NCBI GenBank assembly: GCA_018267955.1
Contig: JAFDXL010000008.1
Span: 186,001-250,000 of the forward strand
Direction of reading: 5' to 3'
DNA: 64,000 nucleotides
Source of the DNA: Bacteroidota bacterium
GTDB lineage: Bacteria; Bacteroidota; Bacteroidia; Chitinophagales; Chitinophagaceae
Part shown: piece by piece, positions 5,549-36,223 of the stretch
Position numbering within the stretch: position 1 is the stretch's first letter
Layout of the letters: each line of letters begins with the position of its first letter
The notes under the pieces: model-generated
The model's database searches: none
Told to the model about the DNA's origin: nothing
The model's input: the letters and a program-made list of their open reading frames with translations, nothing else
Program-made: the position numbers and the translations under genes

Positions 5549-5631
5549 GTTAACCGGTAGTTAACGGTTTGCAAATCGGAGGTTAAGCGGTCGTTTAAAT
5601 AATGCAAAGCTATTTTAGGACAATAAATTAG
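5549..5631 (+). promoter_or_regulatory. 11-bp phased GTTAA array and promoter, copy A
   Basis: Pentamers start at 5549 (GTTAA), 5560 (GTTAA), 5571 (GCAAA), 5582 (GTTAA) and, degenerate, 5593 (GTTTAA), all in exact 11-bp steps. A -7-like box TAAATTAG lies at 5624-5631, which is 42 bp from the 5582 element. The layout matches four other arrays in this window. It drives the short ORF at 5653. Confidence 0.75.
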
Positions 5632-5652: not shown

Positions 5653-5736
5653 ATGCAACAAGGACTTTTATTTGACGATATGATCATCACAGAAGCAGAC
5701 TTTATTCTCGCAAGTATCTTTATTGATCTTGACTGA
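5653..5736 (+). CDS. 27-aa ORF, possible peptide or truncated gene start
   Basis: An ATG about 17 bases after the expected transcription start of array promoter A opens a 27-codon frame (MQQGLLFDDMIITEADFI, then LASIFIDLD). It ends by overlapping the 3' end of the convergent MFS gene by 17 bases. The N-terminus looks like that of a normal cytoplasmic protein. The most likely reading is the 5' remnant of a longer gene cut by a deletion or insertion; a genuine regulated small protein is the alternative. It is not recognised. Confidence 0.35.
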   Translation: MQQGLLFDDMIITEADFILASIFIDLD

Positions 5737-30052: not shown

Positions 30053-30340
30053 ATGTCTATTACACACAATGCAGTTGCAGTACTTTTTCCGGGTGCACAA
30101 ACACAAGATGTTATCAGCGCTTCAGAAAAATACCATATCAATATAGTAGACCAGGAAGCCTACAGCCTGCAAAAAGATTATGAAAGGTATTTTAAGCCTT
30201 CAAGGCATATTTTTCATAAAGATGATGTGAATGTCCTCTTTGTTTTTGCTGATGGTACTGCAAGCCTTATTGAGGATGGCAATAGCATGAGGTCTACGCT
30301 AAGAGATCTTCGCGACCTGATTGGTATGACCTTTAACTAA
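30053..30340 (+). CDS. Small array-controlled protein, paralogue 1 (95 aa)
   Basis: The 95-aa product has no signal peptide. It is homologous over its whole length to the next gene product: NAVAVLFPGAQTQDVISAS, LQKDYERYFKPSRHIFHKDD, VNVLFVFADGTASLIED. The fold looks like a small alpha/beta domain. No family is recognised. It is expressed from array promoter B and its last codons overlap the first element of array C, so the two genes form a duplicated promoter-plus-gene module. Confidence 0.7.
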   Translation: MSITHNAVAVLFPGAQTQDVISASEKYHINIVDQEAYSLQKDYERYFKPSRHIFHKDDVNVLFVFADGTASLIEDGNSMRSTLRDLRDLIGMTFN

Positions 30341-30500: not shown

Positions 30501-30785
30501 ATGAATGCACTTACTAATGCCGTGGCAGTAGTATTCCCCGGTGTCAATACCACAGATGTAGTAAACGCCTCCGTTACGCACACTGCAAATGTTCTGATAA
30601 AAGAACCCTTCAATCCTTTAAAAGATTATACCAAATTCTTTAAACGCTCCCGCAAGCTCATCACTACCGATCTGATGAACCTGTTGTTCATTTACCCTGA
30701 TGGCAGCTCTGTAATGGTACAAGACCTGGTGGCTTTAAAGAATGCGCTGAAGAAAGCAGCCATAGCAAATGGCGCCTTCGCATAA
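30501..30785 (+). CDS. Small array-controlled protein, paralogue 2 (94 aa)
   Basis: This 94-aa product is the second member of the family: NAVAVVFPGVNTTDVVNAS, PLKDYTKFFKRSRKLITTD, MNLLFIYPDGSSVMVQD, then a basic, Ala-rich helix at the end (LKNALKKAAIANGAF). It is cytoplasmic by composition. The N-terminal NAVAV(L/V)FPG and the central KDYxxxFKxSR segments are the best conserved. The function is unknown. It has its own array promoter, a structured leader and a strong terminator. Confidence 0.7.
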   Translation: MNALTNAVAVVFPGVNTTDVVNASVTHTANVLIKEPFNPLKDYTKFFKRSRKLITTDLMNLLFIYPDGSSVMVQDLVALKNALKKAAIANGAFA

Positions 30786-30807
30786 AAAGATGTTGTTTTG
30801 TTGTAGT

Positions 30808-30843
30808 AAGCAGCCTTCGTATTTATACAGGGGCTGCTTTTTT
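30808..30843 (+). terminator. Intrinsic terminator
   Basis: AAGCAGCC pairs with GGCTGCTT and is followed by a T-rich run. It ends the 94-aa gene transcript. Confidence 0.8.
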
Positions 30844-34910: not shown

Positions 34911-35096
34911 TCAGTTTTTAGAACCTGCGTTGATGTCGCGTACATTATTTTGTAGCAGCCATTCATAGAAAGCATCCCTGTCGTCAGGGTTATGTCTTAC
35001 GATCTCTCCGTTCTTAAGCGAAATGATGAAGATGCCAATGGTTTCTGTGAAAGCGGATAATTCATGAGGTTGATACGGAAACTTGGTGCTGGACAT
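34911..35096 (-). CDS. Small unrecognised protein (61 aa)
   Basis: The ATG at 35096 is preferred over an upstream GTG at 35126. The product (MSSTKFPYQPHELSAF, then ETIGIFIISLKNGEIVRHNP) has a strand-turn-strand that resembles a KGxIV-type beta hairpin, followed by a short acidic helix (DRDAFYEWLLQNNV). It has no signal peptide and no recognised family. It is divergent from array D. Confidence 0.55.
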   Translation of the reverse strand: MSSTKFPYQPHELSAFTETIGIFIISLKNGEIVRHNPDDRDAFYEWLLQNNVRDINAGSKN

Positions 35097-35164: not shown

Positions 35165-35270
35165 GTTAAGAAATAGGCCGATTCCTGTTAACCGTTAGTT
35201 AAGCACTTGCAAACCGAAGGTTAAGTATGTGTTTTAATTTTTTTTCTGCACCACCTGCGATGCATATTTG
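35165..35270 (+). promoter_or_regulatory. 11-bp phased GTTAA array and promoter, copy D
   Basis: Elements start at 35187 (GTTAA), 35198 (GTTAA), 35209 (GCAAA) and 35220 (GTTAA), with one more in-phase GTTAA at 35165 (22 bp upstream). The -7 box CATATTTG lies at 35263-35270, 43 bp after the 35220 element. No proper -33 box is visible. It drives the CCGTAA-loop RNA. Confidence 0.82.
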
Positions 35271-35275
35271 TATCA

Positions 35276-35530
35276 CCAACCAAACGAAATAAAATGCTCC
35301 GTAAAGCATTTTAATAGTAGAACAGGTGGCCCCGTAAGGCCTGACAAACAAACGAAATACCTGCTCCGTAAAGCAGGCAAACAAAAAGAAGCCCCGCACC
35401 GTAATGCAGGCATTTTAAAAAGAAAGCCCTGGCCCGTAAGACAGGCAGTTATATAGATCTAAAAGACAATCCCGTAAGATTGTATTGTTAGAGAGCAGAA
35501 GCCGCAGTTTTATAACTGTGGCATTTTTTA
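35276..35530 (+). ncRNA. Candidate regulatory RNA with six CCGTAA hexaloop hairpins
   Basis: Six stem-loops follow the array D promoter, each with the same CCGTAA loop but a different stem. Loop positions are 35299-35304 (8-bp perfect stem AAAATGCT/AGCATTTT), 35332-35337 (GGCC/GGCC), 35366-35371 (CCTGCT/AGCAGG), 35399-35404 (GCA/TGC, extended with one mismatch), 35434-35439 (one mismatch) and 35472-35477 (ACAATC/GATTGT). A/C-rich linkers, two containing CAAACGAAAT, separate them. A 9-bp terminator stem (GCCGCAGTT/AACTGTGGC, 35501-35522) with T6 ends the RNA. No convincing ORF is present. The covarying stems with an invariant loop point to an RNA whose loops are bound by a protein or pair with UUACGG-containing RNA. 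Confidence 0.75.
35501..35529 (+). terminator. Intrinsic terminator of the CCGTAA-loop RNA
   Basis: GCCGCAGTT pairs with AACTGTGGC across a TTAT loop, and a run of six T follows. It sets the 3' end of the RNA near 35530. Confidence 0.88.
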
Positions 35531-35546: not shown

Positions 35547-35630
35547 GTTAATCGCTGGTTAACGGCTTGTAAACAGGTTGTTAACGATTAACACTTATTA
35601 TTGTTAACGCCGGTTTGTGTTTCATATTTG
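35547..35630 (+). promoter_or_regulatory. 11-bp phased GTTAA array and promoter, copy E
   Basis: Elements start at 35547 (GTTAA), 35558 (GTTAA), 35569 (GTAAA) and 35580 (GTTAA). The -7 box CATATTTG lies at 35623-35630, 43 bp after the last element. It follows the RNA terminator by about 17 bases and drives the secreted protein gene that begins at 35663. Confidence 0.82.
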
Positions 35631-35662: not shown

Positions 35663-36223
35663 ATGAAAAACATCATCGCTACTCTAACAATGTTATGCTG
35701 CGCGATCTGCACTTTCGCAGGAGATGGTCCGGCAGTTAGTCAATCAGCTGCCAGTGCCGGTGCTTCACAGACAATACAGCTGGTACTTGCCGATGGCATC
35801 GAAATAGGATTTGCCAACGGGGGTAACAATGGTGGTACCATTCAGCTGGCGTTTGCCAACAATAGCAACTATGCTACGGGCATGGAAAGTGCAGATCAGC
35901 AGCTGGTGGTGCGCAGCAATCGCAAGTTCGAAGTAAAAATGCAGCCTGCGTCAGAAGTGTTTTCCTACAGCGGCGGCACTAACAACGCACCTGCTATGCG
36001 TGTAGAAGATGTATTGTCGCTGATGGTTTCTGATAATGCTACAGGCGGACAAAACGGTTATCCGCAATATCATAATGTAAGTGGCGCTAATACCCGCATA
36101 CTTACCAATTGCAGCAATGGTTCTAACCAGACATTTTCAGTTCGCTACCGTGCTAATCCCGGTATGCGCTACGCTGCAGGCACATACACCGTAAATATGG
36201 TGTACACGGCAACTCAAAGCTAA
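35663..36223 (+). CDS. Secreted beta-sandwich protein, pilin/spore-coat U-like composition
   Basis: The ATG at 35663 gives 186 aa with a signal peptide (MKNIIATLTMLCCAICTFAG). The mature part is beta-rich with QTIQLVLADGIEIGFANGG, two NGGTIQLAFANN-like strands, and ends with MRYAAGTYTVNMVYTATQS. That last edge strand recalls fimbrial or spore-coat U-type modules. It could be a surface fibre subunit or a small adhesin, but no firm family is claimed. It is expressed from array promoter E with a leader of about 27 nt. Confidence 0.7.
   Translation: MKNIIATLTMLCCAICTFAGDGPAVSQSAASAGASQTIQLVLADGIEIGFANGGNNGGTIQLAFANNSNYATGMESADQQLVVRSNRKFEVKMQPASEVFSYSGGTNNAPAMRVEDVLSLMVSDNATGGQNGYPQYHNVSGANTRILTNCSNGSNQTFSVRYRANPGMRYAAGTYTVNMVYTATQS

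Follow-up and report, generated by a model that had tools for sequence, protein, structure and literature searches.

A candidate decoy RNA with six CCGUAA-loop hairpins and its possible link to pilin-like genes in a genus of Chitinophagaceae

The small RNAs CsrB and CsrC, and RsmX, RsmY and RsmZ, are sponges of the proteins CsrA and RsmA. Other hairpins, the UUCG-type stable hairpins and the REP-type elements, are found at the ends of mRNAs and between tandem genes. Hexaloop hairpins read by a protein are described for the ANTAR targets, which have dual hexaloops with A at position 1 and G at position 4, and the RNA EutX is a sequestering decoy with ANTAR-target hairpins; overlap with terminators is described as well (excerpts of PMC8934654). 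Work on Bacteroides, as far as excerpts of it go, has dealt with sRNAs that act by seed pairing and with a protein of the RRM type. In the FopS sRNAs (GibS/FopS) the 5' seed is single-stranded and a lone terminator hairpin comes after it, and the RNA-binding protein RbpB prefers single-stranded regions, according to excerpts of PMC11697453. In the open PMC literature we found no description of an RNA built as an array of CCGUAA hairpins.

Here we analyse such an array in a window of 64,000 nucleotides from a Chitinophagaceae genome (assembly GCA_018267955.1, contig JAFDXL010000008.1, positions 186,001 to 250,000); unless a locus is named, coordinates are those of the window. Six hairpins with the hexaloop CCGTAA and unlike stems span 35290-35483, with a repeat-rich promoter region before them and a terminator after. 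A sequence-only reading had proposed this arrangement and each of its parts is borne out: all six stems are different, the direct repeats before the array are an exact match to a promoter box (35187..35224), and a 9-pair stem with T6 is present at 35501-35529. Hairpin 1 (35290..35313) has nine pairs and its loop at 35299-35304, hairpin 2 (35328..35341) four pairs and its loop at 35332-35337, and hairpin 3 (35360..35377) six pairs and its loop at 35366-35371. Hairpin 4 (35393..35410, loop 35399-35404) and hairpin 5 (35428..35445, loop 35434-35439) have five of six pairs each, with the mismatch at pair 4 and at pair 2 from the loop, respectively, while hairpin 6 (35466..35483, loop 35472-35477) again has six. 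The pairs are thus continuous over 6-9 positions in hairpins 1, 3 and 6 and over four in hairpin 2. In the intrinsic terminator, nine pairs (35501-35522) are followed by A and T6. All these features are on the + strand, which is taken as the array strand because the promoter box and the terminator lie so. The - strand also gives hairpins, with the loop TTACGG (n=5 in the blind scan described below), and the strand count over the array hairpins is 11 G-U cells vs 18 A-C cells. At the level of sequence, this supports the hairpin array as an RNA-gene-like unit with a promoter region and a terminator.

Like CsrB and RsmY, the array has a number of hairpins that share a loop motif while their stems vary, its own promoter and terminator, and the same element on target mRNAs, which are candidate targets here. 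Unlike in those RNAs, the loop is CCGUAA in all six window hairpins and not GGA, and the array RNA would be under the same promoter box as its supposed targets. The CsrA family (PF02599) is matched in 0 of 15 genomes of the genus, while 3 of 14 control genomes match. Due to this absence and to the different loop the CsrA system is excluded, and the earlier statement that CCGTAA is not a CsrA loop holds. The best reading is that the array RNA would act in the manner of CsrB without being one. A match to a known Rfam family had been named in the sequence-only reading as an outcome that would speak against it, and a search against Rfam 15 gave 0 window matches over the curated threshold. Eight array loci from other lineages gave 0 matches, and four loci of the genus a single sub-threshold match (RF02837, E 0.65, 20 bits vs 49.5 needed).

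In a blind scan of the window for hexaloop hairpins with one common loop (at least three continuous pairs, 260-nt span), CCGTAA ranks first on the + strand with five hairpins, and the runner-up loop has three. The hairpin with its loop at 35434 is missed because of the mismatch at pair 2. The largest number of same-loop hairpins was 3 in 60 shuffles of the whole window and 2 in 2000 shuffles of the segment. Counted simply as a word, CCGTAA shows no enrichment in the window (32 found vs 25.35 expected, sd 5.19). The array fold is better than that of shuffles (z -3.12, 2 of 200 shuffles equally good), although not all of the hairpins appear in the minimum-energy fold in the form given above.

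The proposal that stems change around a constant loop is upheld by an alignment across arrays. The hairpin set holds 78 hairpins from ten arrays, some further copies being omitted; 72, of which five are from G004, a genome of another genus, were aligned after six duplicates were dropped, and the statistics are based on 68 distinct rows and six pairs. Paired cells make up 89.7%, compared with 68.0% in shuffles; for covariation the score is 0.579 vs 0.219, and 0 of 500 shuffles reach the observed value. Two-sided changes are found at all six pairs, and pairing is at most 44.6% if the partner is shifted by 1-3 columns. The mismatch at pair 4 from the loop recurs, as 20 of the 68 rows are unpaired there. 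Among the 72 loops 65 are CCGTAA, six CTGTAA and one CAGTAA, a constancy that is inflated because most hairpins were chosen with a loop rule. One hairpin matched by position in seven genomes reads CCGTAA in six and CTGTAA in one, with three pairs changed on both sides; in one further array hairpin the loop is not kept in every species. In G301 all loops and stems are the same as in the window, apart from a single pair of hairpin 2 (35327-35342) in which both bases differ, T.T in the window and C-G in G301. The other differences between the two transcripts are linker substitutions and three single-base indels, which lie in linkers only.

A DNA search of 99 relatives gave matches in 12 genomes, own genome counted, all of one genus. 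Arrays are found in nine of the 15 genomes of this genus (G000, i.e. the own genome, G301, G300, G295, G298, G303, G169, G265 and G299). Loss of the stems or loops in relatives was the outcome that the sequence-only reading had named as speaking against it, and both are kept in these nine genomes. No array was found in the other six (G094, G221, G294, G296, G297, G302); G296 has one pattern match that resembles coding sequence, and the G294 genome is 84% complete. The genus arrays contain 6-11 hairpins each, with loops of the kind C/T-N-GTAA. Outside the window the usual unit is approximately AAAAGACC-NNNN-CCGTAA-NNNN-GGCAAA, repeating every 30-35 nt, compared to which the window array is shorter and more diverged. 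A 61-aa gene (34911..35096, - strand) has a homolog adjoining the array in all nine array-bearing genomes. As a candidate loop reader this neighbour was rejected: its model (pLDDT 87) has the FtsH N-domains as best fold match at E 0.03, which gives no support.

The promoter box, GTTAAN6GTTAAN4TTGYAAAN6GTTAA, consists of four half-sites in 11-bp steps. Between the window box and the first hairpin lies a -7-like element, CATATTTG (35263..35270, + strand), identified by eye; its position is conserved, and most relatives have CATCTTTG in its place. The element is named against what we take to be the promoter consensus of the phylum. A scan for E. coli-type promoters found no + strand site here and two sites, both on the - strand, vs 1.9 expected. 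The exact box pattern gives 113 sites in 13 of the 15 genus genomes and 0 in the reversed control. It precedes all nine genus arrays, 112-246 nt before the first loop, and is then followed by CATCTTTG or a CATATTTG-like element. Thirty of the 113 sites were read: 19 lead 18 distinct pilin-like genes, seven lead six other genes, one leads an array, and three have no ORF of at least 60 aa within 420 nt. The other genes belong to an 89-aa family (MNNQERK.., MNPQERA..; loci L364, L365, L367, L369, L378) and to a lipoprotein-like family of 193-194 aa (L370, L372). In the window, a second copy of the box (35547..35584, + strand) precedes a pilin-like gene. A further exact copy at 5549-5586 has no ORF of at least 60 aa within 420 nt; a 27-aa ORF begins near it at 5653, and this box is present in G301 too.

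The gene behind the second box encodes a secreted pilin-like protein of 186 aa (35663..36223, + strand), a member of the family linked to the hairpin. Pfam gives nothing over cut-off for the pilin-like proteins, this one included. The AlphaFold model of the 186-aa protein, made with 25 sequences, has a mean pLDDT of 81.2, and its best fold match is TLP-1a (E 2.4e-4), followed by FimI and FimA, pilins of the chaperone-usher type (~1e-3); normalised by query, the TM-scores are 0.40-0.49. We infer the label "pilin-like" of this family at the level of the fold.

Single hairpins were searched with a covariance model, the E-values of which are rough. At E < 0.1 the own genome contains the six array copies and three more matches, all three after the stop codon of secreted proteins. 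Two of these proteins are clear members of the pilin-like family, and the third, 196 aa long, resembles the family weakly (25% identity with the window pilin-like protein in the alignment) and was also used as a separate seed. At one own-genome locus (L101, G000:C4) part of the pilin-like gene reads as N. In the genus, hairpin matches at E <= 0.3 are found in 14 of the 15 genomes. Some genomes in which no array was found (G221, G302) have single hairpins at pilin-like genes. Among the 50 non-array hits at E <= 0.02, 33 are at pilin-like genes, six in leaders of a 93-95 aa family and 11 elsewhere, two of the latter at contig ends. The 33 are divided into 16 at 3' ends, 16 in leaders or gaps before genes and one G169 leader assigned by hand. 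In the terminators of pilin-like genes the stems differ from gene to gene and the loop is the same.

For the loci chosen by the hairpin, 25 of 69 genes have a 3' end hairpin and 18 of 69 a leader hairpin, but these counts are ascertained by the hairpin itself and the box-led genes are the fairer sample. There, the terminator loop is CCGTAA at 5 of 18 pilin-like genes, the next most frequent loop being found at 2 of 18, and a CCGTAA leader hairpin is found at 0 of 18. The hairpin counts are also not independent, because tandem paralogs inherit hairpins by duplication. At the window pilin-like gene no CCGTAA hairpin was seen at either end. The proteins of the 93-95 aa family (MATQ..AVAVLVPGAE) have one or two leader hairpins with CCGTAA or CTGTAA (L138, L142, L147, L154). 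By eye, the window ORFs 30053-30340 and 30501-30785 resemble this family; a weak hairpin-model match lies near them (30806-30841, - strand, E 0.058), and Pfam gives nothing over cut-off for the 94-95 aa window proteins.

That a single promoter box, a single recognition hairpin and a single gene family go together suggests a regulon, and a multi-copy hairpin RNA inside that regulon suggests a decoy or hub. The reading that we prefer, with middling confidence, is that the array RNA would be a multivalent decoy or hub for a putative factor recognising the CNGUAA hairpin in mRNAs of surface proteins. The locus would make a short RNA of ~255 nt, displaying six copies of one C-N-G-U-A-A hexaloop hairpin and made from the same promoter box as the pilin-like genes. 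The same hairpin would be carried singly by the mRNAs of secreted pilin-like proteins, in leaders, in gaps between tandem genes and in terminators. A putative trans-acting factor, most likely an RNA-binding protein, would read it on these mRNAs, and the array RNA would compete for that factor, the array dose rising with the regulon. The conserved hairpins, the shared box and the shared element can be read off the compared genomes directly, whereas we infer that the RNA is transcribed, that there is a reader and of what kind, that titration takes place and in which direction it acts. The proteins with an RRM domain, present in all 15 genus genomes with 1-6 matches each, do not track the arrays; because of this ubiquity they are non-discriminating candidates for the reader. 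Against a decoy speak the window pilin-like gene, where no hairpin was seen, the counts at the box-led genes, the genomes that keep single hairpins at pilin-like genes while no array was found in them (G221, G302), the spread of hairpins by gene duplication and the patchy family. If the decoy reading is right, the array hairpin could serve as a short bait in the search for a new RNA-binding factor, and the pilin-like gene set would be a small regulon for testing the decoy mechanism, in a phylum that is important in gut, soil and water.

Such a system would share features with the others described. Like the ANTAR targets and EutX it has hexaloop hairpins, a decoy RNA (proposed here) that carries target hairpins, and overlap with terminators; unlike in the ANTAR targets, as presented in the excerpts of PMC8934654, the array loop is C1, C/U2, G3, U4, A5, A6 and not A1/G4, and the arrays contain 6-11 hairpins. 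With GibS/FopS and RbpB it shares that it is a small-RNA system of Bacteroidota, with RbpB as the RNA-binding protein there, but the array is not built from a 5' seed and one terminator hairpin as the FopS sRNAs are in the excerpts of PMC11697453.

The CCGTAA hairpins also resemble the UUCG-type and REP-type hairpins, as they are found at mRNA ends and between tandem genes; unlike in REP-type palindromes, the stems differ copy by copy, the loop alone is constant, and the array is a separate unit. The best surviving alternative to a decoy, although an unlikely one, is structural: CCGUAA would be a stable or nuclease-resistant hexaloop, UUCG-like, that ends or protects abundant mRNAs, and the array would be a protected leader, trailer or stable RNA with no specific reader. 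In agreement with this, many single copies are terminators, 16 of the 50 non-array hits being such copies at pilin-like genes, and terminator copies are also found in other genera. However, CCGTAA has to be rejected as the usual terminator loop of the genus, since only five of the 90 terminator-like calls made in the window, in L097 and in the 30 box loci are C(CCGTAA)G; six further calls read T(TACG)G, as such a hairpin would if viewed from the other strand. In addition, the few own-genome matches are all at pilin-like or secreted-protein genes, and the array hairpins have no T runs after them. Viral contigs also bear on the structural alternative. The pattern of a CCCCGTAAGG pair gave 34 stretches in them, and 13 contigs (L385, L387, L389-L392, L399, L408, L409, L411, L414, L417, L418), some near-identical, have two hairpins, the second of them a terminator, that share the loop CCGTAA and differ in their stems, directly after the major capsid gene, the end of which resembles T4-like major capsid proteins. 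The capsid protein of L390 has as nearest named phages one with a Flavobacterium host (61.4% identity) and then one of Microcystis (50.3%). Both have other terminators at that site, and in the related Flavobacterium phage it is a TTCG terminator, the strongest single fact in favour of the structural alternative.

Beyond the genus, a scan of a genome collection for two nearby CCCCGTAAGG gave at least 119 stretches, 80 of them as loci. Clusters of at least three hairpins are found, among the matches listed, in 20 of 38 Bacteroidota loci vs 0 of 42 others, two of the 38 being assigned to Bacteroidota by inference. Of these 20, five belong to the window genus, and L265 has the look of a simple tandem repeat. 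Two of 296 phylum genomes contain the strict two-hairpin pattern, in one case as the G004 array. A looser pattern matches in 20 of 248 order genomes and its reversed control gives 24 by row count, so that single looser-pattern matches are noise; these figures rule out a phylum-wide ubiquity of the array. From the order-scan matches listed, we judge that arrays are present in five genomes of three genera (G000, G004, G332, G627, G657). The triple-CCGTAA pattern is found in 90 of 294 family genomes, many through simple repeats or coding sequence, and the reversed pattern is widespread too. With the RNA model, 10 of 102 family genomes have matches at E <= 0.001; those read outside the genus and G004 are single and mostly terminator-like, and in G050 two such hairpins follow pilin-like genes. 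Array-like loci thus occur patchily in other Bacteroidota, at a low prevalence in the genomes sampled. Their neighbours, judged by eye, vary: truA and tatD with a 39-aa ORF (L224, L256), atpG (L283), and thyA in Flavisolibacter longurius (L225) and in G004 (L091). Small clusters of CCGTAA hairpins are also seen near a sugar-phosphate mutase-like gene (MTLIKSISGIRGTIGG..) in L221, L266 and L267, with Parabacteroides and two Bacteroidetes genomes as hosts.

An extension of the decoy reading, which we put forward tentatively and with more doubt than belief, is that parts of the Bacteroidota would have a post-transcriptional code of their own. It would consist of the C-[C/U]-G-U-A-A hairpin, a putative RNA-binding reader, multi-hairpin decoys in several lineages, and hairpins on surface-protein mRNAs and on the capsid mRNAs of T4-like phages that perhaps infect such hosts.

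A second alternative, in our judgement distinctly improbable, is that the loops pair with an RNA bearing UUACGG, so that the array and the mRNA hairpins compete for a small RNA and not for a protein. In its favour, the most frequent change in the loop, C2 to U (6 of 72), would still allow G-U pairing. On the other hand, changes of A5 or A6 to G, likewise compatible with wobble pairing, fell outside the hairpin rule of the loop tally, one loop has A at position 2, and the word count in the window revealed no UUACGG partner RNA. The idea that UUACGG strings in mRNA leaders are the targets, put forward in the sequence-only reading, finds no general support, as neither CCGTAA nor TTACGG words are enriched in the window. 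From the sequences, copies of the array hairpin on pilin-like mRNAs appear to be better candidate targets for the proposed decoy.

The coding potential of the array RNA differs between the relatives. A 62-aa TTG ORF in the window (35268-35456, + strand) was rejected as coding sequence, since single-base indels break the reading frame in the closest relative, G301. The claim that the RNA contains no convincing ORF is right for the window but does not carry over to six of the nine array-bearing genus genomes, where a conserved 31-aa ORF with the pattern M-L/I-T-..R-R-x-S-x-Y-P lies just after the array, on the same presumed RNA (L092, L093, L094, L095, L096, L188; e.g. L096:7568-7660). Since the window and G301 have no tblastn match to this ORF, a purely noncoding RNA fits these two, not every relative. 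That the array would act only in cis, as leader or trailer in an mRNA that encodes a short peptide of membrane type, is very improbable: the 31-aa ORF 3' of the array and, both seen by eye, the 39-aa ORF before the arrays of L224 and L256 and other short ORFs at the G299 array favour it, but no match to the 31-aa ORF is found in the window and in G301, where array, box and terminator are all kept, and the ORF and its position vary between lineages while the loop is constant. In the six relatives with the 31-aa ORF after the array, the RNA may have two functions.
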